From: Gloeocapsopsis crepidinum LEGE 06123
GTDB taxonomy: Bacteria > Cyanobacteriota > Cyanobacteriia > Cyanobacteriales > Chroococcidiopsidaceae
Direction of reading: 5' to 3'
Assembly (NCBI RefSeq): GCF_015207655.1
Contig: NZ_JADEWN010000038.1
Coordinates: 1-54,547, forward strand
Length of the DNA: 54,547 nt
The first letter of the stretch is position 1. Each line of letters starts with the position of its first letter. Position numbers and translations under genes: made by a program. The notes under the pieces were generated by a model. It saw only the letters and a list, made by a program, of their open reading frames with translations, was not told the DNA's origin and made no database searches. This document shows positions 4,307 to 41,083 of the stretch, piece by piece.

Positions 4307-4372
4307 AGTAAATTTGGATTACGTAGTAGGAGGGTAATGAGACAGAGGGGCAGAAGTGCAGGAGAAAATGGA

Positions 4373-5392: not shown

Positions 5393-5778
5393 AAAACTCC
5401 TTTAGTTGCAATATAGTTGCGCCAACCACCCCATTGGGTAATGTCACGCTGGTTTTCACATAGGATTGGTTCGGATAAAACTCCAAGAACTTCGGTTCCG
5501 TCTTCGAGGGCGACTTTACCGATGCAGAGTCCAGGAGGTTCTTGCAGTAGAACTTGTACAAGTCCACTTGCGGGGATTTGCCAAATTTCGAGGGCGATCG
5601 CATTTCCACCACTGGCAACGCGTAGCATGGCAGGATATTTATCGTTGATTGACCAAAGACGATACACTGGTGCAGTTTTGGTTTCGCGGTCAAAGATAGC
5701 GTTGACGGCGAGGAGATTAGAGTTGAGTTCTAAGCCACGCATTAATGTGCCGTTGACGGCGAGGAGTAGGTGATGCAT
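5389..5778 (-). CDS. Free-standing allophanate-hydrolase C-terminal-like domain protein
   Basis: A 129-residue protein resembling the C-terminal (gamma-glutamylcyclotransferase-like) domain of allophanate hydrolase AtzF/DUR1. Visible landmarks are LAVNGTLMRG at the N-terminus, VYRLWSI-x-DKYPAMLRV, and PPGLCIGKV-x-LEDG followed by GVL-x-EP. In the full enzyme this domain completes breakdown of the allophanate product; here the N-terminal amidase domain is absent. The gene is directly coupled (4-base overlap) to the formamidase, so the two may act together. No close homologue of the catalytic allophanate amidase is encoded in the window. Domain assignment is likely; function is inferred. Confidence 0.75.
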   Translation of the reverse strand: MHHLLLAVNGTLMRGLELNSNLLAVNAIFDRETKTAPVYRLWSINDKYPAMLRVASGGNAIALEIWQIPASGLVQVLLQEPPGLCIGKVALEDGTEVLGVLSEPILCENQRDITQWGGWRNYIATKGVL

Positions 5779-5814
5779 TTTTAAAGACGCAGAGGTGCAG
5801 AGGAGGAAAGTTAT

Positions 5815-5965
5815 GAGTTATGAGTCGTGAAGTGTTGAGTTATAAGTTTAAGAAAGTTGTGAGTTTAAGAGAGTTATGAGTCGTGAAGTGTTGAGTTTAA
5901 GAGAGTTCTTCTAATTCAAAACTCAAAATAATTGCCTCCGGCACCTTTGTTCGCTTTCCAAAACT
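5815..5965 (-). repeat. Dispersed intergenic repeat with internal direct repeats; inverted partner at 44653
   Basis: Two parts are visible. First, a 27-base direct repeat (GAGTTATGAGTCGTGAAGTG…) occurs at 5815-5841 and 5871-5897. Second, bases 5918-5965 match the reverse complement of 44653-44700 over 48 bases with one mismatch. Both lie between the stop of the permease gene and the start of the AtzF-C-like gene, so they form the leader of the latter. Confidence 0.85.
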
Positions 5966-5974
5966 TAAAACTAT

Positions 5975-6892: not shown

Positions 6893-6909
6893 TTTTTTCT
6901 CCTACAATG

Positions 6910-7986: not shown

Positions 7987-8079
7987 AATTTTGGTAACTA
8001 GTCATTGGTGATTGGTAATTGAAAATGAGCGGGAAAAAAATACTACAATCGATACTGGTTCGTGGTTCTATACCATTAC

Positions 8080-24763: not shown

Positions 24764-25108
24764 ATGCTTAACTCCAATCTACCAGAGCCTGAATTGCTCA
24801 AAACCATATTGCAACCGCTGCTTGAGGACTTTCAGTATTGGTTTGAGCGATCGCGCCATCTTCTAGAAACCGAGCAAATCGCTTTTCTAGATGAGCAGCA
24901 ACAGTTTGACTTGCTTGAGCGCGTTAAGCAAGCACAGCAGGAGGTCAACTCAGCACAAATGTTATTTAAAGTAACAGGGGGACAAGTGGGTATTGATATG
25001 GCAGCAATGATGCCTTGGCACCAGTTACTGACAGAATGCTGGAAAATCGGAATGAGGTTTCGCTCGGAGCAGTCTCATAAACGGGAAAGAAGATCAGACA
25101 ACTCTTAA
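24764..25108 (+). CDS. DUF2605 family protein, 114 aa
   Basis: A small acidic helical protein restricted, as far as I know, to cyanobacteria. The N-terminus PEPELLKTILQPLLEDFQYWFERS and the later FKVTGGQVGIDMAAMMPWHQLLTECW are recognisable for DUF2605. No signal peptide or membrane segment. It is divergent from thrS and 118 bases upstream of the DUF2973 gene, a common pairing in this phylum. Function unknown. Confidence 0.8.
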   Translation: MLNSNLPEPELLKTILQPLLEDFQYWFERSRHLLETEQIAFLDEQQQFDLLERVKQAQQEVNSAQMLFKVTGGQVGIDMAAMMPWHQLLTECWKIGMRFRSEQSHKRERRSDNS

Positions 25109-25226
25109 GATTTCTGAGATACTCATTATAAATGATGGTTGATTAGCTAAAATGCTGCCCTGCAAAATCAACTGTTTAGACAATAAAACCATAATAAATC
25201 TGCTGGCTGCCTTGGAGAATAATGCA

Positions 25227-25544
25227 ATGTTACACCTGCTTTACATTTTAGCTTTTACAATTCTTGCCTTAATTGCCGTTAGTAACTTAATTCGCAATCT
25301 TTTAATGTTCAGCCGAGAACGCGATAGAACTTATCCAGCGCGATCGCCTCAAAACAGCCAAGGTAGCTATTCTGCTTCACCTCATTCTGTACCGCATCCA
25401 GAGCTATTGGATACTGCAGGAAACATCATCAAAGATCCGCTGTTGGTCATTCGCTCAATCAGTGTTGAAGATGCTCGCCAACAACTTGATGCCCTCTACG
25501 ACTCTTCTCCTGGCTACAAAGGTGAAAACCAAGAGGAAGCATAA
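25227..25544 (+). CDS. DUF2973 family single-pass membrane protein, 105 aa
   Basis: Residues 1-22 (MLHLLYILAFTILALIAVSNLI) form one membrane helix or uncleaved signal anchor. A Ser/Pro-rich linker and a soluble tail (PLLVIRSISVEDARQQLDALYDSSPG) follow. This layout defines DUF2973. I start at the ATG at 25227, with GGAG about ten bases upstream, because the family begins at MLHLLYI; an upstream in-frame ATG at 25152 would add 25 unlikely residues. Probably co-transcribed with the DUF2605 gene. Role unknown. Confidence 0.82.
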   Translation: MLHLLYILAFTILALIAVSNLIRNLLMFSRERDRTYPARSPQNSQGSYSASPHSVPHPELLDTAGNIIKDPLLVIRSISVEDARQQLDALYDSSPGYKGENQEEA

Positions 25545-25681
25545 CTCAATCTCAGCTTATCTAAAAAGCAATTGGCAGTTAGCTAAAAGCACTAACAGCT
25601 AATTTTGCTTGAGTTGAACTGCAACTTAAAATTATCAAGCTATCGAGTAAATTCACATCAAATCAGAAGTATTTAGATTAG

Positions 25682-27028
<1,347 letters not shown>

Positions 27029-27031
27029 TTG

Positions 27032-28249
27032 TTAGGAATCTAGATAACTTTGAATAATCTCAACCGCCCGTCCAACTCCATCTTCTGCACGAATGCGATC
27101 ACCTAAAGCAAGAGCGTTGTTCGTCATAGTTTCATTGCAAATCACATTTTGAATTGCGGTAGCAAACTGATCGCGAGTGAGTTCTTTTTGAGGAATTGGC
27201 AAGGTTCCTACACCTAAATCTGCAACTCGCTGTCCCCAAAATGGTTGATCGACGCCGAAGGGAATAACTACTGAAGGAACACCTGCCCGTAAAGCTGCGG
27301 CTGTTGTGCCTGCACCACCGTGATGAACTACCGCACGGCACAAAGGAAACAACCAGTCATGAGAAATGCTGCCAGTAATTGAAAATACATTGTCTGGTAA
27401 ATCAACACCTTGTAAACCTCCCCAATTCAACAAAATGCCGCGCTGTTTTGTTTGTATAAAAGCGTCTAGTATCAAATTTGTGACTACTTCTGGATTTCGT
27501 TCGCTCATGCTACCAAAACCAACGTAAATTGGTGGCACTCCTGATTCAATGAAATCAACTAAATCTAGTGGTGGTTGCCACTGGGAATCTTCTAAAAACC
27601 AATAGCCCGTAACATAAGCCCAGTCTGACCAATCTTTCGGCTTGGGAATTACAGTCGGGCTAAAACAATGAAGAATCGGTATTTGCTGCTGTTGTAAATG
27701 AGAGTAAAGACCTGCGAAAGGTGCTGGTGGTAAGTTTAGATTCTGTCGCCAGTGATTAATTTTTTTTCGCACTGATTGCCAACGCAGTTGTTCGTGAATG
27801 ACATACGTTAACCAGTTGTAAGTGCCACCAAAATTGATGGGAGTTGTGTAAAGTGGATGGGGAAATGCTCGTGTACGAGTTAATGGATTTGTAAACGCTG
27901 CAAAGCACGGTACTTGTAGTTTTTCAGCAATATGATAGCCAGGTAAGGCAACTTGAGAATAAATAATGGCTTCTGTGTCTTGACAGCAGTTCCAGCAATC
28001 TTCTAAAAGTTGTTCTAGGTGATCGCAGAAGATTTGCCAGTAATCAACATTTTTGGCTAAAGCTTGAATATATTCTTGAGGATTTGTGCCTACTGCTGCA
28101 AAGTCTAATCCATGACTGCGCACGAATTGTGCAAATCGAGCATAAGACACAATTTGTATTTGATGACCAGCTGCTTGTAACCCTAATCCTAATGCTATGT
28201 AGGGCTGCACATCACCTCGACTACCAATCGCTAAGATCGTCATTTGCAT
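27032..28249 (-). CDS. UDP-sugar glycosyltransferase (GT1, sterol-glucosyltransferase/macrolide type)
   Basis: A GT-B glycosyltransferase of 405 residues. The N-terminus MTILAIGSRGDVQPYIALG and the C-terminal donor-site segment VVHHGGAGTTAAALRAGVPSVVIPFGVDQPFWG define the GT1/GT28 group that glycosylates lipids, sterols or small aglycones. No membrane helix. An upstream in-frame ATG two codons before MTIL is used here. Acceptor unknown. Its convergence with a beta-glucosidase that could remove the same sugar is noted but not proof of a link. Confidence 0.92.
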   Translation of the reverse strand: MQMTILAIGSRGDVQPYIALGLGLQAAGHQIQIVSYARFAQFVRSHGLDFAAVGTNPQEYIQALAKNVDYWQIFCDHLEQLLEDCWNCCQDTEAIIYSQVALPGYHIAEKLQVPCFAAFTNPLTRTRAFPHPLYTTPINFGGTYNWLTYVIHEQLRWQSVRKKINHWRQNLNLPPAPFAGLYSHLQQQQIPILHCFSPTVIPKPKDWSDWAYVTGYWFLEDSQWQPPLDLVDFIESGVPPIYVGFGSMSERNPEVVTNLILDAFIQTKQRGILLNWGGLQGVDLPDNVFSITGSISHDWLFPLCRAVVHHGGAGTTAAALRAGVPSVVIPFGVDQPFWGQRVADLGVGTLPIPQKELTRDQFATAIQNVICNETMTNNALALGDRIRAEDGVGRAVEIIQSYLDS

Positions 28250-28503
28250 ATTATTTTCTGGTCATCTTGTATTAAAAATAGGTATACCGATTCTTAATTA
28301 AAAGAACTCAGGGGCAAATCTAACGAGAGATAGAGGAAAACTAGTCAAACTTCGTGTTTGCTCATGATTGTAGTTTATGCTAAGACTTGTATGAAACATT
28401 TACATTTTTTTCAATCTATCTTGAACTTATATTTTTTGCTGAGTCCTAGCTATACAGAATAGTTGACAGGGTTTGTCGCCTATCTAAAGGAGGAGGCATT
28501 ATT

Positions 28504-28566
28504 ATGGTTATTTCGCTAAACATAAATAATTGTAAAGAAATTCTCAGAATTCACCCACGCCACTAG
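28504..28566 (+). CDS. Possible 20-residue leader peptide upstream of the IolE-like gene
   Basis: An ATG at 28504 follows a strong ribosome site AGGAGGAGG (about 28489-28497), better than that of the gene behind it. The peptide is MVISLNINNCKEILRIHPRH and stops at 28564-28566. The TAG stop overlaps the AGGAGA ribosome site of the next gene (ATG 28575), so reinitiation or coupling is possible. It is a leader-peptide candidate; no homologue is recalled. Confidence 0.45.
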   Translation: MVISLNINNCKEILRIHPRH

Positions 28567-28574
28567 GAGAAATA

Positions 28575-29516
28575 ATGCAGGGAATTCGCGTTGCTAATGC
28601 CCCTTGTTCTTGGGGTGATTTGGGAGTGCAAGGACTTGAGGGTGAAAGTATTGGTTATCAACAAATGTTGGACGAGCTAGTTGCAACTGGCTATGTTGGT
28701 ACTGATTTAGGTGATTGGGGATATATGCCTACAGACCCAAATCAGTTAACAGCTGAACTTGAGCGCCGTAATCTCACAATCATCAGTGGCTATGTTCCAG
28801 TAGCTGTGAAAAATCCAGAATCACATCAACAAGCTGAAGCACAGGCTCTCAAAATTGCCCGATTGCTATCGACAGTTGCAGACACGAGTGATACTCAAAA
28901 AAGCCGCCCTTTCATGGTGGTGATGGATGAAATTGGTGCTGTCCCTGTACGAACGCAAAATGCAGGAAGAGTTGAGCCAGGAATGGAGTTAAGCGACGAG
29001 GAGTGGGGTAAATGCATTGCAGGGGCTGAGCGGATTGCACGCGCGATTCGGGATGAAACAGGAATGCGGACAACGTTTCATCATCATTGTGCTTCTTATC
29101 TAGAAACACCAAAAGAAATTGCCCACTTTTTAGAGCAAACTGATCCCAATTTGATTGGCTTAACTTTAGACACTGGACACTATGCTTATGGTGCGGCTAC
29201 AGATGATGCGCAATCTGTATTAGAAGCTTTTGAGCGCTTTGGCGATCGCATCTGGCACGTACATTTTAAAGACTGTGACTTTGAACTTGCCCAAGCCTCC
29301 CGCAACCAAGGTTGGGATTATTTTGAGGCTGTGCGTCGCGGGCTATTCTGCGAACTTGGCAAAGGTGGCGTAGATTTTCCTGCGGTAGTTGCTTGGCTGC
29401 GCGAACATAATTATGACGGTTGGATTGTTGTCGAACAAGATGTACTTCCTGGTATGGGAACTCCTAAACAAAGTGCTCAGCGCAACCGAGAATATTTAAA
29501 GCAATTAGGATTGTAA
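28575..29516 (+). CDS. Inosose-dehydratase-like (IolE) xylose-isomerase-type TIM barrel
   Basis: A 313-residue sugar isomerase/epimerase-type barrel. Metal-ligand positions typical of the family are visible: HHHCASY (about 175), LDTGHY (about 199), WHVHFKD (about 227) and VVEQD at the C-terminus. The start NAPCSWGDLG and TDLGDWGYMP resemble IolE, which dehydrates 2-keto-myo-inositol. No other iol gene is present in the window, so an isomerase or dehydratase of another cyclitol or keto sugar is equally likely. It is the nearest metabolic gene upstream of the EEVS-like cluster but lies 1.2 kb away. Confidence 0.85.
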   Translation: MQGIRVANAPCSWGDLGVQGLEGESIGYQQMLDELVATGYVGTDLGDWGYMPTDPNQLTAELERRNLTIISGYVPVAVKNPESHQQAEAQALKIARLLSTVADTSDTQKSRPFMVVMDEIGAVPVRTQNAGRVEPGMELSDEEWGKCIAGAERIARAIRDETGMRTTFHHHCASYLETPKEIAHFLEQTDPNLIGLTLDTGHYAYGAATDDAQSVLEAFERFGDRIWHVHFKDCDFELAQASRNQGWDYFEAVRRGLFCELGKGGVDFPAVVAWLREHNYDGWIVVEQDVLPGMGTPKQSAQRNREYLKQLGL

Positions 29517-29555
29517 AAAGTTAGCATCACCGCTCTTTGAGTGGAGTTATGAGTT

Positions 29556-29697
29556 ATGAATTTTGAGTTTTGAATTTTAGAAAACATTTGTAACATTCTT
29601 AACTCAACATTCTTGAAAGCCTCCAATGCTTTATTCCCTGACTTTAGGTATGGGAATTCAACTCAACACTCAAAATTCAACACTCAAAACTCTTTTC
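29556..29697. repeat. Low-complexity GAGTTTTGAATTTT / AAAATTC-type inverted repeats
   Basis: GAGTTTTGAATTTT near 29562 and AAAATTCAACACTCAAAACTC near 29672-29692 are imperfect inverted copies, part of the TGAGTTTTGAGT/ACTCAAAACTC family scattered between genes of this genome. They may fold over the 3' end of the IolE-like transcript. Confidence 0.5.
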
Positions 29698-29716
29698 CCT
29701 TCTACTATGGGAAGAT

Positions 29717-29938
29717 CTATTGCCGACTTTTTGAATCGCTATGTTGTTGCCGCAAGTTGAGTAAAGAAACCGTTACATGGTTATGAGTATCACCTGTGGA
29801 GGCATCGGGTATCTTTTTTTTGAGTCTGCGAACAAATTCACGAATGACATCTGATTGAGTTCGCTCAACTTGCATACAGTATTGCCTAAGTATTTCTAAC
29901 TCATCATCTGAAAGCCTAACAAACAGTCCTTTTTTCAT
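29717..29938 (-). CDS. CopG-like ribbon-helix-helix protein, 73 aa
   Basis: Residues 4-43 (LFVRLSDDELEILRQYC-x-Q-x-ERTQSDVIREFVRRL) form a ribbon-helix-helix DNA-binding fold: a short beta strand followed by two helices with the TQSDVIREF turn. The tail is polar and disordered. Such proteins act as dimeric repressors or antitoxins; no toxin gene is adjacent. It lies 200 bases after the IolE-like gene on the opposite strand. Confidence 0.7.
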   Translation of the reverse strand: MKKGLFVRLSDDELEILRQYCMQVERTQSDVIREFVRRLKKKIPDASTGDTHNHVTVSLLNLRQQHSDSKSRQ

Positions 29939-30669
29939 GATCTTGTGTTATCAAAATGATATACATTTATTATGGGTTACTATTAGTACGGTCTCCACCA
30001 ACAGAAACTCAGCTAACAAAAATTGCCAGCTGTGTTGATGTGTCCTATCGCTAGTATAAATAGTGACTGACATGGTAGAGGCAGAATAATGAGCAAAACA
30101 GCGTTGCTTTTTATATGTATGCTTTGGTATTAACTCGCAGAGTGTAGTCAACTCCATCACAATCATCAATATTGTTTGGATTGAAACAGCACCTGAACAA
30201 TAACGAAAAGTAGTCCCCTGAGTATATTGCAATCTTGATTTGAATTTCTGTACGGAACCCAACCGAGGCAAAATTCAGCGCAAGAATCAATTTCCTCCAA
30301 TATCAAGCCATTGGCAGCGATGAGTATATAACTTGGGCTATTGTCTGTAAGTGCGATTGCAGCGAACAGTCCCTTCTGTGTACCTAGCCTTTGCTTTCCC
30401 CGTTCGGCGAAGCTGTTGCCTAAGCTTAAGTGGTTGAGTGCTTGAAAACGTTGTGTTATAGCAGAGGTCAGAGATTAGAGAACGCGCGATCGCTTAGACC
30501 TGCGCTTGGAAGGTTAGGGTTAAAAGCTATTTAGGGTAAGGCTTTGATCTATAACGTCTTGATCTTTACTTTCATTGCTATATCTCGCAGCCACTACAAC
30601 CAAATTGCCAGCAAAGGTTTTTATTTCCGAATCACACAACTTGTTAAGTCAAGAGGATTGAAGAGGGTT
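29939..30669. other. Upstream region of the EEVS-MysC-like cluster, no convincing gene
   Basis: About 730 bases. A minus frame at 29951-30271 encodes a peptide without domain features and is not called. Bases 30385-30425 hold a CTTTCCCCGTTCGGCGAAGC-type hairpin repeat. The cluster promoter should lie in this block; I cannot mark it with confidence. Confidence 0.5.
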
Positions 30670-31815
30670 ATGAGTGCAAAGTGGTCAGTCAAGACACAAT
30701 TACCAGTTCATTACACTGTATTTGAGAGTTTCGACCTATTCAATCCTGATAACAACGCTTTGTTGTTCGACGGGCAGAATTCGAGCCTACAGTCTTTGCG
30801 TCGAGTCGTTGTCGTAGATGATTATGTTGAACGTCTCCACGGAGAACGCATTCGCCAGTACTTTCAGTATCACGAAATTGAATACCGCCTGATCTCGCTT
30901 TCGGTATCTGAAGATAACAAATCAATGGAGACAGTTTTTCAGGTAATTGAAGAACTGAATGCTTTTGAAGTTGCACGGCGATCGGAACCAGTGATTGCGA
31001 TCGGCGGTGGCGTACTGATGGATATTGTTGGTTTAGCTGCTAACCTTTTTCGACGGGGAATTCCCTATATCCGTATTCCTACAACTTTATTAGGAGTCGT
31101 CGATGCGGCAATCGGTGCCAAAACAGCGGTAAACTTCCAAGGTCATAAAAATCGGATCGGTACATTCTATCCTCCACTTGCTGCAATACTTGATACAACA
31201 CTGTTACAAACTTTAAGTGACAGACAAATTAGTAATGGTATTGCGGAGATTCTCAAAATTGCACTTGTCAAAGATACAGAATTATTTGAACTATTAGAGA
31301 ATTACGGTGCGGCAATGCTAAGTAGCAAGTGCCAAAATCCAGAAGCCATGCCAATTATTCGGCGTTCCGTACAAGGCATGTTAGAAGATTTGGAATCCAA
31401 TCTCTGGGAGGAGAAACTCGAAAGACTCGTAGATTACGGTCATACTTTCTGCCCTACACTGGAGTTGAAAGCTGTACCAAAACTCTTACACGGAGAAGCT
31501 GTTGCGGTTGATATGGCAATTTCTGTGATGCTTGCCTATCAAAGAAGTTTAGTCACTTATCAAGAAGTCGAACGCATTTATAATTTTATGCGCAGCGTGC
31601 GTTTACCATTACTACATCCGATTTGTACACCCGAACTGCTGTATGCAGCATTACAAAGTACAACAAAACATCGCAACGGGCTACAACGCTTTCCATTAAC
31701 GGTAGGAATTGGTTCAGCACAATTTTTCCACGATATCACCTACGATGAAATCAAAACAGCCGTAAAAGCGATCGCACAATTAGAACCAGACGCAGCAATG
31801 CAAACTTCCTTGTAA
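30670..31815 (+). CDS. Sedoheptulose-7-phosphate cyclase, 2-epi-5-epi-valiolone synthase (EEVS) type
   Basis: A 381-residue sugar-phosphate cyclase of the dehydroquinate-synthase fold, using NAD+ and a divalent metal to cyclise sedoheptulose 7-phosphate. Visible are the NAD loop GGGVLMD (112-118), IPTTLLGVVDAAIGAKTAVNF (136-156), and metal ligands E193, H258 (DYGHTF) and H274 (LLHGEA). Position 241 is Leu, 255 is Asp and 334 is His (KHRNGLQR). As I recall, this L/D/H trio marks EEVS (ValA, AcbC), whereas demethyl-4-deoxygadusol synthase of MAA clusters has E/A/T there. I prefer the ATG at 30670, which matches AcbC-type N-termini; an upstream TTG at 30544 is unlikely. It heads a cluster with a methyltransferase and a MysC-type ligase. 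Confidence 0.9.
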   Translation: MSAKWSVKTQLPVHYTVFESFDLFNPDNNALLFDGQNSSLQSLRRVVVVDDYVERLHGERIRQYFQYHEIEYRLISLSVSEDNKSMETVFQVIEELNAFEVARRSEPVIAIGGGVLMDIVGLAANLFRRGIPYIRIPTTLLGVVDAAIGAKTAVNFQGHKNRIGTFYPPLAAILDTTLLQTLSDRQISNGIAEILKIALVKDTELFELLENYGAAMLSSKCQNPEAMPIIRRSVQGMLEDLESNLWEEKLERLVDYGHTFCPTLELKAVPKLLHGEAVAVDMAISVMLAYQRSLVTYQEVERIYNFMRSVRLPLLHPICTPELLYAALQSTTKHRNGLQRFPLTVGIGSAQFFHDITYDEIKTAVKAIAQLEPDAAMQTSL

Positions 31816-31850
31816 TTCATATCAACTTTATCGCTTTTACATTCAAAGAC

Positions 31851-32510
31851 ATGACTACAGTCAACGAGACGATCGAATATAACGAGCACCTCAGTCAATA
31901 TATTCGCAACTTATTTGTTGTTGAAGACGACACTTTACAACAAATTCGCGAACGACCAGCAAAAGAGGGTTTACCTCCTCACGACATTAATCCAGAAGAA
32001 GGTCGCTTTTTGCAACTACTAGTCCGTGCTAGTAATGCCAAATCAGCAATAGAATTTGGCACGCTGGTAGGATATAGCAGTATCTGGATTGCCCGTGGCT
32101 TAGCAGCAGAAGGCAAACTATTCACCTTCGAGAAAGAACAGATGTGTGTGGACATTGCTAAGGATAATTTTGCCAAAGCTAATGTTGCTCACCAAATAGA
32201 GATTCTTTGTGGCGATGCTCACACCTTAGTTGATTCCGTTGCTGCTCAAGGACCTTTTGATTTCGTGTTCATCGACGCGGAGAAGACAGGTTACATTGAT
32301 TACTTTAATTGGGCATTAGAAAATACCCGTCCTGGTGGGTTTATTGTTGCTCATAACGTATTCCTCCACTGCACCATCCTTGATTCAGACACAACTGATG
32401 AAGGAGTCAAAGCAATGCAGATGTTCCACAAACACGTTGCTACCTCTAACCGTGTCACGAGTACTGTATTTCCGGCAGGAGATGGAACTCTTGTTGCGGT
32501 AACTGCCTAA
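31851..32510 (+). CDS. SAM-dependent O-methyltransferase, caffeoyl-CoA-OMT type (MysB position)
   Basis: A 219-residue class I methyltransferase. SAM-binding motif I is EFGTLVGYSSIW (about 66-77), followed by FEKE, GDAH and the metal-site segment FDFVFIDAEKTGYIDYF (about 140-156) typical of cation-dependent catechol/caffeoyl-CoA OMTs. It occupies the place of MysB in MAA clusters, 35 bases after the cyclase gene. It is shorter than MysB proteins (about 275) and lacks their N-terminal extension. The likely job is methylation of the cyclitol made by the cyclase, as in gadusol formation; this is inferred. Confidence 0.88.
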   Translation: MTTVNETIEYNEHLSQYIRNLFVVEDDTLQQIRERPAKEGLPPHDINPEEGRFLQLLVRASNAKSAIEFGTLVGYSSIWIARGLAAEGKLFTFEKEQMCVDIAKDNFAKANVAHQIEILCGDAHTLVDSVAAQGPFDFVFIDAEKTGYIDYFNWALENTRPGGFIVAHNVFLHCTILDSDTTDEGVKAMQMFHKHVATSNRVTSTVFPAGDGTLVAVTA

Positions 32511-32529
32511 ATCTGTTTTCTAGGTCATT

Positions 32530-33891
32530 ATGGAATCAGTACAAACTCCCCGCAAGCAGGCTTTTGCTTTACTCAAGAGCCTTGGTACTCTGACTTTACT
32601 TTTATTAGCATTTCCATTTTCTTTGAGCGTTGTTGTCTTCACGCTGTTATGGAGTTTGCTAACAAGCTTATTTCAGCGTCGCGTACAGGCAAATCCGAAA
32701 AGGATTTTGCTTACTGGTGCTAAGATGACAAAATGCTTAACTCTGGCGCGATCGTTTCACGCAGCTGGGCATCGCGTTTTCATGGTAGAAACCAAAAAGT
32801 ACTGGTTATCAGGCAATCAGTTTTCTAACTGTGTAGAAGCTTTGTACACCGTTCCTGCACCCCAACACGATACTGAGGGCTACATTCAGGGGCTACTGAA
32901 CATTGTCAAGAAAGAAAAAATTGATATGTTCATTCCTGTATCTAGCCCAGTTGCTAGCTATTATGACTCTTTAGCCAAACCAGCATTGTCGCCCTATTGC
33001 GAAGTATTTGCGTTTGATGCTGAGACAACTAAGCTACTAGACAACAAGTTCACTTTTAACCAAAAAGCACATTTTGTAGGACTATCTGCGCCAAAAACCT
33101 TCTTAATTACCGATCCAGATCAAGTTCTCCAATTTGATTTTGCTGCTGATGGAAGTCAGTACATTCTTAAAAGCATTGCCTACGACTCAATCAATCGCTT
33201 AGCTTTGCTGAAGTTGCCCTGTGCTGCTGAAGAAATGGCTGAGTATGTTTACAGTCTGCCAATCAGCGAGGAAAATCCCTGGATTATGCAGGAGTTTCTC
33301 AAAGGGCAAGAGTATTGTACTCACGCTGTTGTTAGAGATGGACAGTTACTGCTTTATGCTTGTGCCAAATCCTGTGATTTCTTGGTTAACTACGAACACG
33401 ACTACAATCCCGCAATTTTGGATTGGGTAAGTCGCTTTGTCAAAGAACTCAACCTGACAGGGCAAATTTGTTTGGACTTTATTCAAGCAGCGGATGGTAC
33501 AGTTTATCCGATTGAATGTAATCCGCGAACAAGTACCTGTATCACTATGTTCCACGACCAACCAAAGGTAGTGGCAGATGCTTATCTCAGTAGTAGTGCA
33601 CAAGCACCAAAAGAACCTGTGCAGCCTCTACCTGATAGTAAGCCTACTTATTGGACATTTCACGAGCTTTGGCGGTTACTGAATATTAAGACTTGGAGAG
33701 ATTTTCAGTATCGGCTCAGCATTATTTTCAATGGTATAGATCCAGTTTTTCATCCTCGCGATCCATTGCCATTTCTCGGAGTCAATCACTGGCAAATTCC
33801 TTTGCTAATTCTCAACAACGTGCGTCAATTCAAAGGCTGGGAACGTATTGACTTCAACATTGGCAAGCTGGTGCAGTTAGGAGGCGATTGA
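32530..33891 (+). CDS. mysC: MysC-like ATP-grasp ligase
   Basis: A 453-residue ATP-grasp enzyme matching MysC, which joins glycine to 4-deoxygadusol to give mycosporine-glycine. The N-terminal hydrophobic segment (about 14-47) is also found in MysC and may anchor it to membrane. Diagnostic stretches are ARSFHAAGHRV, VPAPQHDTEGY, SSPVASYYDSLAKPALS, PWIMQEFLKGQEYCTH, the metal/ATP site IECNPRTSTCITMF, and the C-terminal RIDFNIGKLVQLGGD. The gene starts 19 bases after the methyltransferase stop, so they are surely co-transcribed. Because the upstream cyclase is EEVS-like, the acceptor cyclitol may differ from canonical 4-deoxygadusol. Confidence 0.92.
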   Translation: MESVQTPRKQAFALLKSLGTLTLLLLAFPFSLSVVVFTLLWSLLTSLFQRRVQANPKRILLTGAKMTKCLTLARSFHAAGHRVFMVETKKYWLSGNQFSNCVEALYTVPAPQHDTEGYIQGLLNIVKKEKIDMFIPVSSPVASYYDSLAKPALSPYCEVFAFDAETTKLLDNKFTFNQKAHFVGLSAPKTFLITDPDQVLQFDFAADGSQYILKSIAYDSINRLALLKLPCAAEEMAEYVYSLPISEENPWIMQEFLKGQEYCTHAVVRDGQLLLYACAKSCDFLVNYEHDYNPAILDWVSRFVKELNLTGQICLDFIQAADGTVYPIECNPRTSTCITMFHDQPKVVADAYLSSSAQAPKEPVQPLPDSKPTYWTFHELWRLLNIKTWRDFQYRLSIIFNGIDPVFHPRDPLPFLGVNHWQIPLLILNNVRQFKGWERIDFNIGKLVQLGGD

Positions 33892-34057
33892 AGTCTTAAA
33901 AGCCAGCTAACAGCTAACTATTAGCTAGGCTCAAAGCAAAATAATCTTCTACCCATTGAGTTGCAGCAAATCATAATTCTCCTCTCTGCTTTGCTCCCCT
34001 GCTAGTTATTTAAGCAACTCTAAAGCGAAACGGTATTACATTCATAGCGGAGTTTCA

Positions 34058-35116
34058 ATGACAACTACACTCGCTCAAAAAACTAACAACATGGAAGCCA
34101 AAAAGAAAGTTTTTGGCATGATCCAAGCTTTCTGGGAAAGTCAGTGTTTACATGTGGCAACACGCCTAGATATTTTTAATATATTGTCTGAAGGATCGCA
34201 AAGTATTGAAACCTTAGCAGAAAAGACTGCAACTAAGGTTGACAAACTTTATATTATATTACGTGCTTTAGGGCACTTAGGAGTGCTGGAAGAACAGCCA
34301 GGAAGAGTTTTTGCGGCAACAGAAGTGTCTGAACTGCTAGTCACAAATGCTGGACCTTCGATCGGGCATTTTGCGATGCACATTATTGAACCAGCACAGT
34401 GGGATGCTTGGAAAGTGTTGGAGACGTGCTTACATACCGGAGAAGTGCCGTTTGAGCGTGCTAATGGCAAGACGGTTTATGAATTTACACGAGATGAAGA
34501 TTGGAGTGGCGATGTTTTCATCAAAGCTATGAGTTTTTTAACCGATCATGCTGTTGATGCATTGCTCGATGTTTTTGATTTTAGCCGCTTTAATACAGTC
34601 ATGGATGTTGGTGGTGGTCAAGGCGGACTCATTTCTAAGATCGTTAAGCGCTTTGGCTGTAAAGGTATCTTATTTGATTTACCGTATGTTACAGAAACAG
34701 CACCCGCACACATTGAAAAACAAGGCGTTGCAGCTGATGCAGTTCAAATCGTAACAGGTGATGTTTTTAAGGGATTGCCTACTGGGGCTGATGCAATTGT
34801 GATGAAGTATTTCCTATCTTCATGGAAAGATGAAGATGCACTCGCGATACTGCGTCATTGTAAAGCAGCACTACCAAAACATGGCAAGGTAGTTTTATTG
34901 CAGTGTATTGTTCCAGATTTAGGTGAGCCGACAGTTTGTCCTGATGGTATTATTCCATCACTATTTGCGACACAGATTATGGTGGCAGTTCCTGGTGGTG
35001 CGTGGCGTACTCAGAAAGAATATGAACGCTTATTCACAGCAAGCGGTTTCCAACTTGAAAATGTCGTGCCTACGGGAACTAATCTCTCAGCCTTGGAATT
35101 TGGTTTAGTAGATTGA
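34058..35116 (+). CDS. Class I methyltransferase-fold protein (acetylserotonin/hydroxyneurosporene OMT type), catalytic His replaced
   Basis: A 352-residue protein with an N-terminal winged-helix dimerisation domain (about 20-100) and a SAM-binding domain (about 170-352; motif VMDVGGGQGGLISKI). In the O-methyltransferase family 2 the segment L-H-D/N-W holds the catalytic histidine. Here it reads KYFLSSWKDED, so the histidine is replaced by serine. It may methylate by proximity only, act on N or C, or have another reaction as some RdmB-like relatives do. It follows the mysC-like gene by 166 bases on the same strand and is probably part of the same pathway, perhaps from a second promoter. Confidence 0.85.
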   Translation: MTTTLAQKTNNMEAKKKVFGMIQAFWESQCLHVATRLDIFNILSEGSQSIETLAEKTATKVDKLYIILRALGHLGVLEEQPGRVFAATEVSELLVTNAGPSIGHFAMHIIEPAQWDAWKVLETCLHTGEVPFERANGKTVYEFTRDEDWSGDVFIKAMSFLTDHAVDALLDVFDFSRFNTVMDVGGGQGGLISKIVKRFGCKGILFDLPYVTETAPAHIEKQGVAADAVQIVTGDVFKGLPTGADAIVMKYFLSSWKDEDALAILRHCKAALPKHGKVVLLQCIVPDLGEPTVCPDGIIPSLFATQIMVAVPGGAWRTQKEYERLFTASGFQLENVVPTGTNLSALEFGLVD

Positions 35117-35129
35117 AATTCAGAAGCTA

Positions 35130-35148
35130 GGGGCAGGCATCCTGCCCC
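35130..35148. terminator. Hairpin between convergent genes (GGGGCAGG/CCTGCCCC)
   Basis: A perfect 8-bp G/C stem (35130-35137 and 35141-35148) with a 3-base loop lies between the convergent stops at 35116 and 35158. There is no U-run. It could slow polymerase from both sides. The sequence is a familiar cyanobacterial intergenic palindrome; a related one is at 47173-47195. Confidence 0.55.
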
Positions 35149-35157
35149 AATAGTATG

Positions 35158-38118
35158 CTAGCTTTCAAGACAAACAAGTGTTTGAGATTGCTCTAGCTCT
35201 ATTAAAAGTTGTTGCCAGTTTAGTCCTGCTAAGTTATCTCGGATGATATGAGCATCTCCAACACGTTCTACTGGACCAAGCCCCAAAACCCACATTTTGG
35301 CAGCTAATCCGGCGGCAACTCCTGAACTAGCATCTTCCACAACAAGACATTCGTGTGGCTGCAATCCTAACTGACCAGCAGCATACAGAAAGACATCAGG
35401 AGCTGGCTTATGATGTTCGACACTGTAACCGTCAGCGATCGCATTCAATCGCTCAGCAATTCCTAAGCGTTGACACACAAGGCGAGCGTTTTTACTCGAT
35501 GAACCAATCGCGACTTTAATGTCCGCAGCATGAAGTTCATCTAATAAAGCAAGTGCTCCTGGAAGTAAATCGGCTGGCGTAAGATTTTGAATTAATTGCT
35601 CATAGTAACTGTTTTTGCGAACCATCATCTCTTGAAGTTCTGCTTCACTCACAGCGCAATCACCTAACATATGTAACAGCGAATCGCGGCGTGACAATCC
35701 CCGCATTTGCTCGTTAGCTTGACGGTCAAAGGCAATTCCAATTTCGTCTGCGAGTTGTTTCCAGGCTAAGTAATGATACTCTGAGGTATCTGTTAAAACA
35801 CCATCTAAATCAAAAATGACGCCTCGCAGTGGAGTTATCGTACAGCGATCGCTCAGTGCCATATTTGGTTTTACTTGATTCAACCCCTCAGAAGATATTC
35901 CTGATACTTCCGGTTTTTGTGTTGTCATAATTACGGCATCGGGTGAGATGTCAAACTTGTACCACCGTTGACGCCATTGCAGCTTAAACTGCAAACGGGT
36001 CCAGTTTGATGGTAAATGAGATTGATCGACAATTGGTCCTGCTTCAGTCAAACGGACACCAGCAAAACCAAAGACAACAGCTTGCCATATTCCACCAGCT
36101 GATGCTGCATGAACGCCTTCACCTGCATTACCACGAACATCTTTGATATCTACTAGTGCTGCCCGCATAAAATGTTCGTAAGCTGTCATAGGTTCATCTA
36201 ATTCACAAGCCAAGATTGCATGAATCGCAGGTCCTAAAGAAGATCCATAGGTGTGATCGGTACGGGGAGTATAATAATCCCAATTTGCTTGTAACAACTG
36301 AGGCCGCTGTTGGGCGGTCATTTCAGTTTTCAACGGAGTATCTCGCAACAAGTACAGCAGCATTAAAATATCTGGCTGCTTCAAAATCTGCTTTTCATTT
36401 GTCCCTTCAACGCCGAGAATGGCTTGCATCGACTGCGTACGCCATTGATAATCTGTCCAGTCAATGTCTTCTAAATCAAAGAAGCCCTCAAATTGCTCAA
36501 TAACTTTTGTCTCTGTTGGTTGAACTACTAGCATATGGCGGATAATATGCGACCAACGCTTTGTCCGCTCTGGTCTAATATCTAACTTCTGCGCTAATTC
36601 TGCTGCTCGTTCTGGATAATGTTGATGCAACCAATTATATACAGCTAAAGCACTTTCCAAGTGCCACTGCGCCATGCGGTTAGTAAAAGTATTGTTATCA
36701 ACGCGCTCGTGGTTTTCATCTGGACCGATGACATCGCGAATTTCATAGCATTGGCGATCGCCGTTCCATTCAACGCGGCTACCCCAAAAAACTGCAGTGT
36801 CGAGGACAATTTCTGCACCCTCGCGTTGCATCCAATCATCATCGTGCGTTGCTTGCCAATAGTGCCAAACCGCGTAAGCAATATCTGTATTAATATGAAC
36901 TTCAATATCACCACACCAAATGCGTACAGGTTCTCCATCAGGACCAAATACCCAACGCGGAGTCACTTCATCACCTGTATTTGCACTTTCCCACGCATAC
37001 ATTGCACCTTCATATCCTGCTGCTTGGGCTTTGCGTCTGGCACCTTCCAAGGTGTGGTAGCGATAAGACAGCAAGTTACGGGCAATTTGTGGTTGTGTAA
37101 ACGTAAAGAAGGGAACAATAAAAACCTCGGTATCCCAAAATACGTGACCGCGATAAGCAAAACCCGATAATGTTTTTGCCGGAATGCTGACGCGGTTGTT
37201 ATGTCGTGGTGCGGCGGCGAGGATTTGAAACAGATTGTAACGAATAGCAATTTGGGCTGTGGAGTCGCCTACGATTGCAATGTCGCAGTCTTGCCATAGA
37301 TCGTCCCATACTGCACCGTGAGCTGCAAGTAAAGTTGTATAGCTTGGTAAACTCGCCAGTCTTTCTTGGGCTGCTGACACAGGTTGGTTTGCTTCAAGTG
37401 AAGTAAAAACAGTCACAATTTTTTCTAGGGTGACAGTCTTGCCTGGCTGTGCCTGAAATACTGTTGTTAACGTTGGACTACCAGCCTCTCCTATAAATTT
37501 AACGGGTGTTGCTTCCGAACACGCTAGTTGAAACGCCATTCCTAGCTCAATTTTTGAATGGTTACAGCGCTGATGTAACCAGGCGTTATTATTGCTACCA
37601 CCTTGTTCAAGCCAACTCCAATGTTTAACGCCGTGATTATCTACGTTACCATTGATGCTAGCTTCGACCGCGATCGCTCCCGTAAAGTCTACGGGCGTTA
37701 TCTGGCAGTGCAGCACCAAAACATGGTCGTCTGCCATACTAATCATGCGTTCAAAGTGGAACTTTACGGTATGCCCACCAGGACTACGCCACAACACGTC
37801 ACGGCTCACGATACCCCAGCGGAGGTCTAACTGGCGCTGATAATCTAAGATCTCGCCTTGACTGAGACAAAAGCGATCGCTCCCTATGTATACTGTTAAC
37901 GGCAACCAATCTGGACAGTTAACTAGTTCCGTATGCATAACCGGAACATCATCGTACACGCCATTAATTAGGGTCGCTGCGCTGGTATTTGGGTAGCCCT
38001 CTTCAAAGCTGCCACGCGTGCCCAGATAACCGTTACCTAAGGTAAACAAAGTTTCCTTGTGGTGCAGTTCTGCTGGGTCAAATTGAGTTTCAAAAATATT
38101 CCAACCGCTGTAGTCCAT
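35158..38118 (-). CDS. GH65 glycoside phosphorylase fused to beta-phosphoglucomutase
   Basis: A 986-residue fusion. Residues 1-740 are a GH65 phosphorylase (kojibiose/trehalose/maltose type): N-terminal beta-sandwich with LFTLGNGYLGTRGSFEEG, the catalytic acid in VIGPDENHERVDNN, and the phosphate site GEGVHAASAGGIW. Residues about 760-970 are a HAD beta-phosphoglucomutase with GVIFDLDGVLTDTSEYHYLAW, the SSSKN motif and CLVVEDASSG. The fused enzyme would release beta-glucose-1-phosphate from a disaccharide and convert it to glucose-6-phosphate. Which disaccharide is not readable. It is the last of three sugar genes on this strand, suggesting mobilisation of a storage or compatible sugar. Confidence 0.93.
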   Translation of the reverse strand: MDYSGWNIFETQFDPAELHHKETLFTLGNGYLGTRGSFEEGYPNTSAATLINGVYDDVPVMHTELVNCPDWLPLTVYIGSDRFCLSQGEILDYQRQLDLRWGIVSRDVLWRSPGGHTVKFHFERMISMADDHVLVLHCQITPVDFTGAIAVEASINGNVDNHGVKHWSWLEQGGSNNNAWLHQRCNHSKIELGMAFQLACSEATPVKFIGEAGSPTLTTVFQAQPGKTVTLEKIVTVFTSLEANQPVSAAQERLASLPSYTTLLAAHGAVWDDLWQDCDIAIVGDSTAQIAIRYNLFQILAAAPRHNNRVSIPAKTLSGFAYRGHVFWDTEVFIVPFFTFTQPQIARNLLSYRYHTLEGARRKAQAAGYEGAMYAWESANTGDEVTPRWVFGPDGEPVRIWCGDIEVHINTDIAYAVWHYWQATHDDDWMQREGAEIVLDTAVFWGSRVEWNGDRQCYEIRDVIGPDENHERVDNNTFTNRMAQWHLESALAVYNWLHQHYPERAAELAQKLDIRPERTKRWSHIIRHMLVVQPTETKVIEQFEGFFDLEDIDWTDYQWRTQSMQAILGVEGTNEKQILKQPDILMLLYLLRDTPLKTEMTAQQRPQLLQANWDYYTPRTDHTYGSSLGPAIHAILACELDEPMTAYEHFMRAALVDIKDVRGNAGEGVHAASAGGIWQAVVFGFAGVRLTEAGPIVDQSHLPSNWTRLQFKLQWRQRWYKFDISPDAVIMTTQKPEVSGISSEGLNQVKPNMALSDRCTITPLRGVIFDLDGVLTDTSEYHYLAWKQLADEIGIAFDRQANEQMRGLSRRDSLLHMLGDCAVSEAELQEMMVRKNSYYEQLIQNLTPADLLPGALALLDELHAADIKVAIGSSSKNARLVCQRLGIAERLNAIADGYSVEHHKPAPDVFLYAAGQLGLQPHECLVVEDASSGVAAGLAAKMWVLGLGPVERVGDAHIIRDNLAGLNWQQLLIELEQSQTLVCLES

Positions 38119-38375
38119 GACTAGATCGTCTCGCTGTGGGTATCGTACAATACAAAAATCTCTTTCTATAGCATTCCCCTTTAGATAGATATCCGCAGGG
38201 AATTTACGAAAACCGAAGTAAAACTATACAAAACGCAATAAAGTGTTGTTAAAATTTGCAAGTGATAGTGGCTAGTTGTGAGTGGCTATTGGCTACTGCA
38301 CACCAGTGTTACTTAAATTTGCCAATGCTAGTGAAAGATCGAACTATTCACTAATCACTAGAGTCACTCCTACAC

Positions 38376-40691
38376 TTAAGCTTCAATAACAACTCTAAGG
38401 TTTCCGCGTTTTCTAGCAACGCGACACGCAGTAGTATTGCCCGAACGCTCAAACTCCAAGTCTAGTAAAGTAGGTCCAACGCGTAAGTTGTGTACCGACA
38501 GAGTGTTGATTGATTCTGGTAAAGCAGGATCAATGATTCGCAAACAGTTGTTTTTAGCATCAGGAACTAAGTTCACCATCATTTGTAAAAGTTGGAAAAT
38601 GCTTCCTGTTGCCCAGGCTTGTGGCGAACAAGCTACTGGATACTGTACTGGGTCATTATCGTTTGTGCGTTCATAGCCGCAAAACAGCTCAGGTGGGCGC
38701 TGATAAGGCTGGCGTTGAGTCATTTCTAGAATACTTTGAGAAAGCTCAAGAGCTTGATCGATTAATCCTAGCGATCGCACGCCCATAGCAATCATCGCAT
38801 TGTCATGCGGCCAAACTGAGCCAATATGATATCCCATTGGATTATATGCTGGGGACAAACTACTTAGGGTCCGAATACCCCAACCGTTGAACATATCAGG
38901 TCCTCGCAACCGTTCAGCTACGCTGTAGGCTTTGTCTGGTGTGAGAATGCCCAGGTGTAGACAATGACCAGGATTAGAAGTGATGCTATCAACTTGCTTG
39001 CCTTCACCATCTAAAGCTAAAGCACAGTAATCTTGGTCTTTCATCCAAAAGTCACGATTAAATCGCTCCTTAAGAAGGTTGGCATCTTCTTGCCAGCGTT
39101 CTGCTAGGTCGATCCGCTTTTTCATGCGCGCTATTTCTGCTAACCGCACTTTTGCTGCATAGACGTACGCTTGAACTTCACATAAGGTAATAGAACCATT
39201 TGCTAAGTGCCCGTGACGGTCTACAATACAGTCACCTGAGTCCTTCCACCCTTGGTTAACTAAGCCACGACGGGAAGTCCGAAAATAGCTAAGATAGCCG
39301 GTCTGTTCGCAATTGCGGTCAATCCATTCCATTGCCGCTAGTGCGTTCGACCACAGTTGCTCTAGGGTTTCGTTATCGTGTGTCCAGGCGTAATACTCTG
39401 CGTAGAGCATCAACCACAAAGGAGTTGCATCTACTGTGCCGTAGTAGGGTGTATGGGGAATTTCTTGGCAACGTGCCATTTCACCCATACGTAACTCGTG
39501 CAGAATTTTACCTGGTTGTTCTTCGCGCCACTCATCTTCTATTTTACCTTGATAAGCAGCAAGAATGGTGAGTGTTTCCCGTGCGATCGCAGGGTTCAAC
39601 ATTAGCGTTTGAGACGCTGTAATCAGTGAATCGCGTCCAAATAGTGCGGAAAACCAGGGAACACCGGCAGAGACAACTTTGCAGCTACCAAATCTTTTAC
39701 CGATCGATTGTCGCAAGAGATATAAATCTTGCTCAGCGCGTTCAATTGTTCGGTTAAAAATGACTTTATCCGAGCGAATTTGCGTAATATGGTGTCGCCA
39801 ACTTTGCTCTTCTAATAACTCAGCAGCTTTCGCCTGTACTAATGTCATAGGAGCACTGACAGTTGACGCTTGCTGACTGTTGGTCAGCATTTGAAGCCGA
39901 TAGCCCAACTTTTGTGTTTGATGAGAAGCTAGTTCTATTTGCCAAATTGCTGTGTAGCCTTTGAAGGATTTCGGCTGTAGGTATTGAAACTGAATTCGCG
40001 ATTCCATCAACGTTCCATCCAAGCCTTGGTAAGCTAGCGTTAGGGCGTCTTGATAGCACAGTAGGTAAGCTCCATCACGAGATGATGCATCTTCTGGAGG
40101 TTTGGTTGATGGTTCAGCAAGACGTAAGAGCCTACCGCGTTTTTCCCGCTGAAAACCTCGAATTTCAAATAAATCAATAAAATCGGCATCAAAGCTCAGA
40201 CTTAGCTCAAAACTAGCTGAGCTGGTACTATAATTCGTAATTTCAATTTCTTCAAACAGCGCTCCTCCTAGGGCAATTTCTCTGCGAATTCCCAGTGCAT
40301 CAGATTTTAAACGGTTCTCAATTGTTGGATTCGTACATAAAATCGATAGAGAAAAACCCTTATCAGCAGTACTGCTGAGTAGTACCGGCGATCGCCCTTC
40401 AATTTGCAACTCTAGCCGACTGAGAAACCGAGTATCATTGCAAAAAAGCCCCATGCTTGCTTTTTGTTCGTCTGTTGCCCCCATGCAACCAGAAACATTT
40501 CCTAGCGTATCAGTGACTAGAAATAAATCGTCATCTTTGACTGTAAGCGTTGGTTGCGGTCGCTCACTTAGGACACAAGGCCACTCGGGAATCGGTAACT
40601 GTTGTGCAGGAACAAAAATTCTCCCGTCTAGTTCGAGTTTGTCTGTTGTCATCAGCGTATCTGGTGTCATGCCAAATATTTCCGATTCCAC
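38376..40691 (-). CDS. Amylo-alpha-1,6-glucosidase / glycogen-debranching-like enzyme
   Basis: A 771-residue protein. The N-terminal domain (about 45-290) is the bacterial GDE N-terminal beta domain (DLFLVTDTLGNVSG … GLFCNDTRFLSRLEL). The C-terminal (alpha/alpha)6 barrel carries GVPWFSALFGRDSLITASQTL, MGEMARCQEIPHTPYYGTVDATPLW, DSGDC and the GYHIGSVWPHDNAMIAMG segment with catalytic-type acids. Activity on alpha-1,6 branches or related glucosides is expected. It may start at 40691, 40670 or 40652; the three ATGs are in frame and none has a decisive ribosome site. It lies upstream of the GH65 fusion and downstream of a GT4 enzyme. Confidence 0.9.
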   Translation of the reverse strand: MESEIFGMTPDTLMTTDKLELDGRIFVPAQQLPIPEWPCVLSERPQPTLTVKDDDLFLVTDTLGNVSGCMGATDEQKASMGLFCNDTRFLSRLELQIEGRSPVLLSSTADKGFSLSILCTNPTIENRLKSDALGIRREIALGGALFEEIEITNYSTSSASFELSLSFDADFIDLFEIRGFQREKRGRLLRLAEPSTKPPEDASSRDGAYLLCYQDALTLAYQGLDGTLMESRIQFQYLQPKSFKGYTAIWQIELASHQTQKLGYRLQMLTNSQQASTVSAPMTLVQAKAAELLEEQSWRHHITQIRSDKVIFNRTIERAEQDLYLLRQSIGKRFGSCKVVSAGVPWFSALFGRDSLITASQTLMLNPAIARETLTILAAYQGKIEDEWREEQPGKILHELRMGEMARCQEIPHTPYYGTVDATPLWLMLYAEYYAWTHDNETLEQLWSNALAAMEWIDRNCEQTGYLSYFRTSRRGLVNQGWKDSGDCIVDRHGHLANGSITLCEVQAYVYAAKVRLAEIARMKKRIDLAERWQEDANLLKERFNRDFWMKDQDYCALALDGEGKQVDSITSNPGHCLHLGILTPDKAYSVAERLRGPDMFNGWGIRTLSSLSPAYNPMGYHIGSVWPHDNAMIAMGVRSLGLIDQALELSQSILEMTQRQPYQRPPELFCGYERTNDNDPVQYPVACSPQAWATGSIFQLLQMMVNLVPDAKNNCLRIIDPALPESINTLSVHNLRVGPTLLDLEFERSGNTTACRVARKRGNLRVVIEA

Positions 40692-41083
40692 AATGATTTA
40701 CATTTCTCGGGCTGTTAACTGCTTCTACAGTGTTTAACCTATCAAACAACTGCTCAATAGCAATCCTTACATAACTTCATTACACGACCGAAGTAAGTTG
40801 TACAACTTACACTCAAGATGAAAAATTGACAAGATTCTTCATGATATCTACTTTCAGCTTTAACTAGTTAGCAACTGACATTATTGAAAATAGGCGATTG
40901 TTAGCCTTTCACTTTACTTCATTTCTGAAATTTGACTGATTATTTATAAACTATTGTAAATATATTTAATAATAATAGCTAAATTATAGTTGGGTTCTAC
41001 TAGCAAGGAGTCAAAAGCCAGAGGCGATCAACAGTGACTTTTGACTTTTTGACGTTTACATTTTGGCTGACACTACTTAGTTG
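40692..41083. other. A/T-rich intergenic region with an inverted repeat
   Basis: No gene is visible. A 9-bp inverted repeat AGTCAAAAG (41009-41017) / CTTTTGACT (41038-41046) is followed by TTTT on the plus strand. No plus-strand gene ends here, so it is probably a member of the genome's GTCAAAAG low-complexity repeats rather than a working terminator. The debranching-enzyme promoter should lie towards 40750. Confidence 0.5.

Follow-up and report, generated by a model that had tools for sequence, protein, structure and literature searches.

A MysC gene cluster headed by an EEVS-type cyclase in Gloeocapsopsis crepidinum and a possible dehydratase route to mycosporines

The window analysed here is a stretch of 54,547 nucleotides (contig NZ_JADEWN010000038.1) from the assembly of the cyanobacterium Gloeocapsopsis crepidinum LEGE 06123, which consists of 150 contigs with completeness given as 100. 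It carries a gene cluster in which a sedoheptulose-7-phosphate cyclase is followed by an O-methyltransferase (OMT) and a MysC-like ATP-grasp ligase. The cyclase is very probably a 2-epi-5-epi-valiolone (EEV) synthase (EEVS) and not a demethyl-4-deoxygadusol synthase (DDGS). This agrees with the central interpretation of the first-pass annotation, an EEVS-type cyclase heading a MysC cluster, which was supported by both the placement of the cyclase outside the DDGS clade and the search for a separate mysABC. Tentatively, at a probability of about 0.4, the cluster is read as an EEVS-first pathway in which an IolE-type dehydratase opens the way to a glycosylated mono-amino mycosporine. The dehydratase route as a whole lowers the confidence compared with the cyclase assignment alone.

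The type of the cyclase

The residues L/D/H, as opposed to E/A/T, at three positions separate EEVS from DDGS. The first-pass annotation had read L241, D255 and H334 in the 381-residue cyclase, and all three are exact; the AcbC-type motifs that it had listed (GLAANLFRRGIPY, HKNRIGT and KHRNGLQR) are all present in the protein. In phmmer alignments, the counterparts of positions 241, 255 and 334 are L/D/H in ValA (PDB 4p53) and E/A/T in the Anabaena DDGS (PDB 5tpr), with scores of 397.6 bits for ValA versus 251 bits for the DDGS. Active-site fingerprint residues taken from the ValA structure have been described as telling EEVS from DDGS (PMC4426668, partial text). The alignment comprised 75 rows: six window-type cyclases, 29 actinobacterial loci with ValA, 34 cyanobacterial loci with the Anabaena DDGS, two rhizobial plasmid loci, and the aroB-like and ebo-type cyclases of the same genome. 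Repeats and fragments among the 108 cyclase hits were left out of alignment and trees. The LDH triad was found in all window-type (6/6), actinobacterial EEVS-type (30/30, ValA included) and rhizobial (2/2) rows, and EAT in all 35 cyanobacterial DDGS-type rows, while the aroB-like row reads VNV and the ebo-type row IDH. Separating columns were defined as those in which the EEVS (30 rows) and DDGS (35 rows) groups are each at least 90% fixed for different letters. At 27 of these 33 columns the window cyclase is EEVS-like, at three it is DDGS-like (153, 266, 330), and at a further three it is neither (79, 172, 240). Its identity to actinobacterial EEVS of the ValA/AcbC type is 46-51%. An ordinary DDGS cyclase was rejected on the bit scores, the triad and the separating columns.

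The phylogeny placed the window cyclase outside the DDGS clade, as the first-pass annotation had expected, but favoured neither a grouping with EEVS nor one beside DDGS. The DDGS rows form a single clade (100/100) without the window type, stable whether the long-branched aroB-like and ebo rows are included or omitted, and the window-type cyclases form a clade of their own (100/100). In the approximately unbiased (AU) test, holding the window clade with actinobacterial EEVS gave a p-AU of 0.58 and holding it with DDGS 0.54. In the tree of this test the window type clustered with the two rhizobial rows, both of them long (97/90), a grouping flagged as possibly false. As the cyclase tree was built without vertebrate, algal, myxobacterial and EVS sequences, an EVS-type product of the window cyclase may be possible.

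The unsettled deep position, the cyclase-OMT-MysC order and the three DDGS-like columns would fit an ordinary mycosporine-like amino acid (MAA) cluster, in which the cyclase, despite an EEVS signature, would yield desmethyl-4-deoxygadusol (DDG) inside the cell and the IolE-like gene would have no part. This explanation is very unlikely, since all three triad residues and most separating columns are EEVS-like and the methyltransferase differs from MysB too.

Other cyclase neighbourhoods were observed alongside. On contig C8 of the same genome (L002 910-2163, 2150-3058), the ebo-type cyclase adjoins a UbiA-like gene, and its triad I/D/H shares two of the three EEVS residues. On rhizobial plasmids (L140 6929-14450, L141 6875-10392), an EEVS-type cyclase with LDH is accompanied by one ROK-family and one TIM-barrel gene, and L140 has dehydrogenases as well. 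A tblastn search with the window IolE-like protein gave no match to these TIM-barrel genes at E <= 1.

Extent, conservation and distribution of the cluster

The first-pass annotation had confined the cluster to 30670-33891, which proved too narrow: it spans at least 28575-35116, and the IolE-like gene, the second methyltransferase (OMT2) and the glycosyltransferase had been overlooked. The features of the locus are as follows.

25688..27028, plus strand: GH1 family beta-glucosidase-like gene; flank, cluster membership uncertain
27032..28249, minus strand: UDP-glycosyltransferase-like (UGT) gene, GT28/EryCIII-like by Pfam; candidate glycosylation step
28575..29516, plus strand: IolE-like inosose dehydratase (TIM barrel), below the TIGR04379 cut-off; candidate dehydratase/isomerase on the EEVS product
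29717..29938, minus strand: small ribbon-helix-helix-like open reading frame (ORF); candidate regulator
30670..31815, plus strand: predicted EEVS-type sedoheptulose-7-phosphate cyclase; ATG start, 381 aa
31851..32510, plus strand: OMT3, family-3 O-methyltransferase; PF01596, 138 bits
32530..33891, plus strand: MysC-like ATP-grasp ligase; PRK06849, 475 bits, above cut-off
34058..35116, plus strand: OMT2, Methyltransf_2 family; PF00891, 139 bits; candidate late methylation (N- or O-)
35158..38118, minus strand: GH65 domain fused to beta-phosphoglucomutase (bPGM); convergent right-hand boundary, in the same place in 6/6 loci

The cyclase is separated from OMT3 by 35 bases and OMT3 from the MysC-like gene by 19. 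The mysABC-like order claimed earlier is present as cyclase-OMT-ATP-grasp, but the methyltransferase is not a MysB orthologue. A search for the gene order in other cyanobacteria, proposed by the first-pass annotation, showed it kept in the window and five relatives, drawn from two genera within a single family. In all six loci it runs GH1, UGT, IolE-like, cyclase, OMT3, MysC, OMT2, GH65-bPGM. The GH1 protein (585 bits on TIGR03356, above cut-off) keeps its position in 6/6, and the small ORF, 84-100% identical in 6/6, lies between the IolE-like gene and the cyclase; its score on RHH_1 is 18.3 bits, under the cut-off of 20.5. Rfam at gathering thresholds gave no match in 25000-41000, and the promoter scan was near chance (16 found vs 14.2 expected; terminators, 8 vs 5.4).

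Between the window and the five relatives, dN/dS was 0.02-0.05 for the cyclase, 0.03-0.06 for OMT2, 0.04-0.12 for OMT3, 0.05-0.14 for MysC, 0.08-0.14 for the IolE-like gene and 0.15-0.22 for the UGT. Purifying selection acts on all of these genes, and the cluster is maintained. A flanking debranching enzyme, compared with four relatives, has values like those of the cyclase (0.03-0.04).

A separate full mysABC, named by the first-pass annotation as evidence that would speak against its interpretation, was not found in the genome. There is one MysC match and there are three genes of the dehydroquinate synthase (DHQS) family: the best-scoring, on C58, taken as aroB; the one on C8 beside the UbiA-like gene, taken by eye as ebo-type; and the window cyclase. 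The DHQS-family search found no DDGS in the genome. The idea of a silent duplicate beside a full mysABC was rejected, as a single MysC and no DDGS were found in the genome.

Distribution was followed in samples of 386 genomes for the phylum, 388 for the order and 19 for the family. Across the phylum sample, 26 genomes (the own included) match the cyclase at E <= 1e-60, and only the own cyclase exceeds 43% identity. In the family, 15 of 19 genomes have a match at E <= 1e-50 and four are without one; six, three from each of the two genera, reach 96-100%, and nine lie at 38-43% and are DDGS-like. The tree included seven of these nine, all of which fell among the DDGS rows (of the other two, G392 duplicated a nearly identical sequence, and G393 did not enter the alignment). 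At the order level the same six of 388 genomes reach E <= 1e-78, a limit placed just past the best DDGS match. Close orthologues of EEVS, the IolE-like gene, OMT3 and the glycosyltransferase occur in only those six of the 19 family genomes. A protein scan of the genome contig collection returned no relative, although records close to this genome were possibly left out there.

Elsewhere in the window, inspection by eye showed one block with two isochorismatase-like hydrolases, a nitrilase-like amidohydrolase and a BMP/nucleoside-type ABC transporter (855-9258), and a 1202-aa protein of NTPase and WD40-repeat type (9710-13318).

The enzymes accompanying the cyclase

The IolE-like protein scores 184.3 bits on TIGR04379, under the membership cut-off of 290. 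Proteins in the IolE position inside Deinococcus and Thermus iol operons are also under 290, at 182.5 and 159.6 bits. Its nearest plasmid relatives, 49% identical, lie between iolD and iolC in these operons. The gene is present at 88-100% identity in exactly the six EEVS genomes of the 19, while the other 13 give a single match of 30% (G401). In the phylum sample nine genomes match at E <= 1e-15, the eight besides the own at 26-36%. The residues HHH169-171, D199, H202, H230 and E287 are invariant in 7/7 aligned proteins (two partial), and some of them are presumably metal ligands. A match to iolD above its curated cut-off occurs in 0/6 EEVS genomes (3/14 controls pass), with weaker matches resembling thiamine diphosphate (ThDP) enzymes in all six; iolB, iolC and iolG were not searched for. 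The protein thus looks like an inosose dehydratase that stands, without a complete inositol pathway, beside a probable maker of a branched inosose-like ketone.

OMT3 was rejected as a MysB, as the two are 29-36% identical over ~170 aa and OMT3 has no MysB N-terminal part (the RPVTPLGIL region) and another metal motif. Generic family-3 OMTs outscore MysB against it. Its motif reads A-H-N, with the H present in 6/6 window-type loci, where 8/8 MysB and 5/5 other OMTs aligned have D-N. An automatic motif read-out departed from D in 13/58 other OMTs, but it was judged unreliable and the alignment was used instead, in which four of the 13 (L060, L062, L113, L118) show D. Outside the six genomes, the phylum search with OMT3 returned, among the matches listed, generic family-3 OMTs at <=44% over short stretches, the best at 142 bits.

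The MysC-like nature of the ligase, claimed by the first-pass annotation, is confirmed by its PRK06849 score, an NCBIfam model also passed by the MysC of Nostoc HK-01, and by 55-60% identity to MysC of DDGS clusters. A broken MysC copy in L050, of lower identity in part, was left out of the MysC tree. In this tree of 22 rows, the six window-type ligases stand on one side of a 100/100 branch and the 16 others opposite; eight of these 16 come from seven genomes of the same family. The ligase is therefore not a local copy of recent origin that has a new cyclase for a neighbour, and is best regarded, on sequence grounds, as an ATP-grasp enzyme of the MysC kind on its own deep branch. In G386 (L048 6092-7435, 7513-8880), two tandem mysC genes stand behind a DDGS-type mysAB.

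OMT2 homologues lie 3' of MysC in two DDGS clusters, L062 (66%) and L050 (60-75%, in pieces), and extra methyltransferases are reported in MAA clusters (PMC9918943, PMC10510106, PMC7826186; partial texts). The UGT orthologue is 81-100% identical in 6/6 EEVS genomes; some match exists in 14/19 family genomes, and the next best two come from G386, at 51% over part of the length and at 42%. No MysD match was found in the six EEVS genomes, nor in the family's nine DDGS genomes, so this is not peculiar to the EEVS type; among the 19 genomes searched, two match (G380 78%, G183 31%).

Proposed route, alternatives and known systems

DDGS by itself cyclises, dehydrates and tautomerises, while in fish an EEVS makes EEV, which MT-Ox oxidises and methylates to gadusol (PMC4426668, partial text). 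In composition, DDG equals EEV less one water, and gadusol equals EEV less two H with a methylene added. Because of these differences, an EEVS placed before MysC needs either a dehydratase, towards 4-deoxygadusol, or an oxidase, towards gadusol. The nine scanned proteins of 25688-40691, to which the search for an oxidase was confined, include one member of a dehydratase family but no oxidoreductase, and for this reason the dehydratase route is preferred. We infer each catalytic step and the product as follows. The cyclase would convert sedoheptulose 7-phosphate to EEV and, unlike DDGS, release it. The IolE-type enzyme would bring about a carbonyl shift and the loss of one water, giving DDG, so that two proteins would do the work of the single DDGS. 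OMT3, standing in for MysB, would methylate the ring enol, one amino acid would be attached by the MysC-like ligase, OMT2 may add a late methyl, perhaps on nitrogen, and the glycosyltransferase would attach a sugar. The expected product is a glycosylated one-amino-acid mycosporine absorbing at ~310-330 nm.

In its wider form, somewhat more doubtful still, the proposal is an independent route, the third, to the mycosporine core, in which DDGS gives way to EEVS plus a dehydratase of IolE type taken over from inositol catabolism, OMT3 replaces MysB, and MysC belongs to a dedicated branch. With the same reservation, its range would be two genera, in which no DDGS was found, of one cyanobacterial family.

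Several points weigh against the dehydratase route. A simple elimination of the IolE kind would cost EEV its C3 hydroxyl and lead to a 1,2-dione instead of DDG. To reach DDG, the carbonyl must first move to C2 and the hydroxyl at C4 must be lost; carbonyl shifts on inososes are known from related TIM-barrel enzymes (IolI). The 49% relatives of the IolE-like protein are ordinary inositol enzymes, and the gene may itself belong to inositol breakdown, though this role is less likely because iolD, the one iol gene sought there, is not above cut-off in the six genomes. It lies 1.16 kb upstream of the cyclase with the small ORF between, and is perhaps not co-transcribed with it for this reason. The six EEVS genomes represent two genera of one family, and the co-occurrence may thus amount to one event. 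Near 29 actinobacterial EEVS loci, some of them short-flanked, MysC, OMT3, OMT2, IolE-like and UGT proteins have no match at E <= 1e-5; GH1 was matched at two loci, and the phosphoglucomutase domain weakly at two. Moreover, the 325-330 nm absorption reported for a Gloeocapsa strain lies above the 310 nm that is usual for mycosporines with one amino acid.

That absorption belongs to UV-induced material of Gloeocapsa BRSZ, and the formation of such material by a strain probably of this group also speaks for the preferred reading. BRSZ has 95.45% average nucleotide identity with Gloeocapsa PCC 7428 (PMC12967839); the same paper cites a 326 nm compound in Gloeocapsa C-90-Cal-G. We infer that all three strains carry the present cluster type. 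Both BRSZ and PCC 7428 are listed there as having plain MysA-MysB-MysC clusters, which makes plausible the first-pass guess that automatic annotation would call this a plain MAA cluster. The enzyme name used in PMC11636366 is no proof of cluster type, because ordinary MysA is likewise named (PMC9918943, PMC11378024; partial texts).

The wavelength bears on a second explanation, in which EEV is turned into gadusol by OMT3 and an oxidase encoded elsewhere, as with fish Mt-Ox, after which MysC would add an amino acid, OMT2 a methyl and the glycosyltransferase a sugar to give a klebsormidin-like compound, with the IolE-like protein otherwise employed. Klebsormidins have a gadusol core with N-methylserine, and klebsormidin A also glucose; they absorb at 324 nm, which their authors attribute to an extra hydroxyl (PMC7118736, partial text) and which is near the value for BRSZ. 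A gadusol-core MAA has been proposed from a green algal set of EEVS, Mt-Ox, MysC and a cyanobacterial-MAA-type OMT, alongside which engineered gadusporines are cited (PMC7826186, partial text). The deep MysC branch would fit an altered substrate, and the absence of a MysD match from all six EEVS genomes agrees too. However, the scanned proteins hold no oxidoreductase, OMT3 is a single-domain methyltransferase, and the co-inherited enzyme is a dehydratase, superfluous for gadusol. A gadusol core is considered somewhat less likely than the dehydratase route.

A product that is no sunscreen, a C7-cyclitol amino acid or glycoside such as a compatible solute or signal, in which MysC links an amino acid or amine to another carbasugar derivative, is clearly less probable than either. 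Actinobacterial EEVS usually feed carbasugar pathways, the GH1, glycosyltransferase, GH65 and debranching genes make a sugar-rich neighbourhood, and the MysC branch is long and separate. Against it stand the two methyltransferases, the resemblance of the ligase to MysC of DDGS clusters, the OMT2 homologues behind MysC in two of these, and the UV-absorbing material in a Gloeocapsa strain probably of this group.

If the dehydratase route is true, a cyanobacterial sunscreen pathway would have been rebuilt from other parts in one lineage, and the UV chromophore would be reachable by more than one way within cyanobacteria. The cluster would be a natural bacterial source of EEV-derived mycosporines and could account for absorption at 325-330 nm where Gloeocapsa-like strains lack MysD, and 'mysABC' calls made from gene order would mask differing chemistry.

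The first-pass annotation had called the pairing of EEVS with MysC a new combination. This holds in so far as no bacterial report was found, but the pairing has already been proposed in green algae (PMC7826186, partial text). The literature search found no EEVS-type MysA with MysC described as a distinct cyanobacterial pathway, though subscription papers may hold an earlier mention, and nothing on mycosporine-sarcosine; two distant MysA clades, with an EEVS versus DHQS-type difference suggested, are described in PMC10510106 (partial text).

Among known systems, cyanobacterial mysABC(D/E) clusters share the cyclase-OMT-ATP-grasp order, the MysC identity and, in two of those examined, an OMT2 homologue after MysC, whereas the window has an EEVS-type cyclase, OMT3 instead of MysB, a separate MysC branch, no MysD match, and the extra IolE-like and UGT genes. 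Actinobacterial ValA/AcbC clusters resemble it in the LDH triad and cyclase identity, but not in their surroundings. The vertebrate gadusol pathway likewise starts a UV-absorbing cyclitol with EEVS (PMC4426668, partial text), but the window cluster is without MT-Ox and has an amino acid ligase. The IolE of Deinococcus and Thermus iol operons shares 49% identity and the invariant HHH, D, H, H and E, while the window gene lies beside EEVS. The green algal neighbourhood (PMC7826186, partial text) is alike in its EEVS-type cyclase, MysC-type ligase, extra cyanobacterial-MAA-type OMT and proposed 324 nm gadusol-core product, a likeness that rests on the published description, with no algal sequence in the comparison. 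It differs in that the window cluster is bacterial, no Mt-Ox domain was found in it, and it has a single-domain OMT3, an IolE-like gene and a glycosyltransferase. Summarizing, the combination is a bacterial variant of the EEVS-based mycosporine cluster proposed for green algae from genomes, and the proposed dehydratase route is its novel part.

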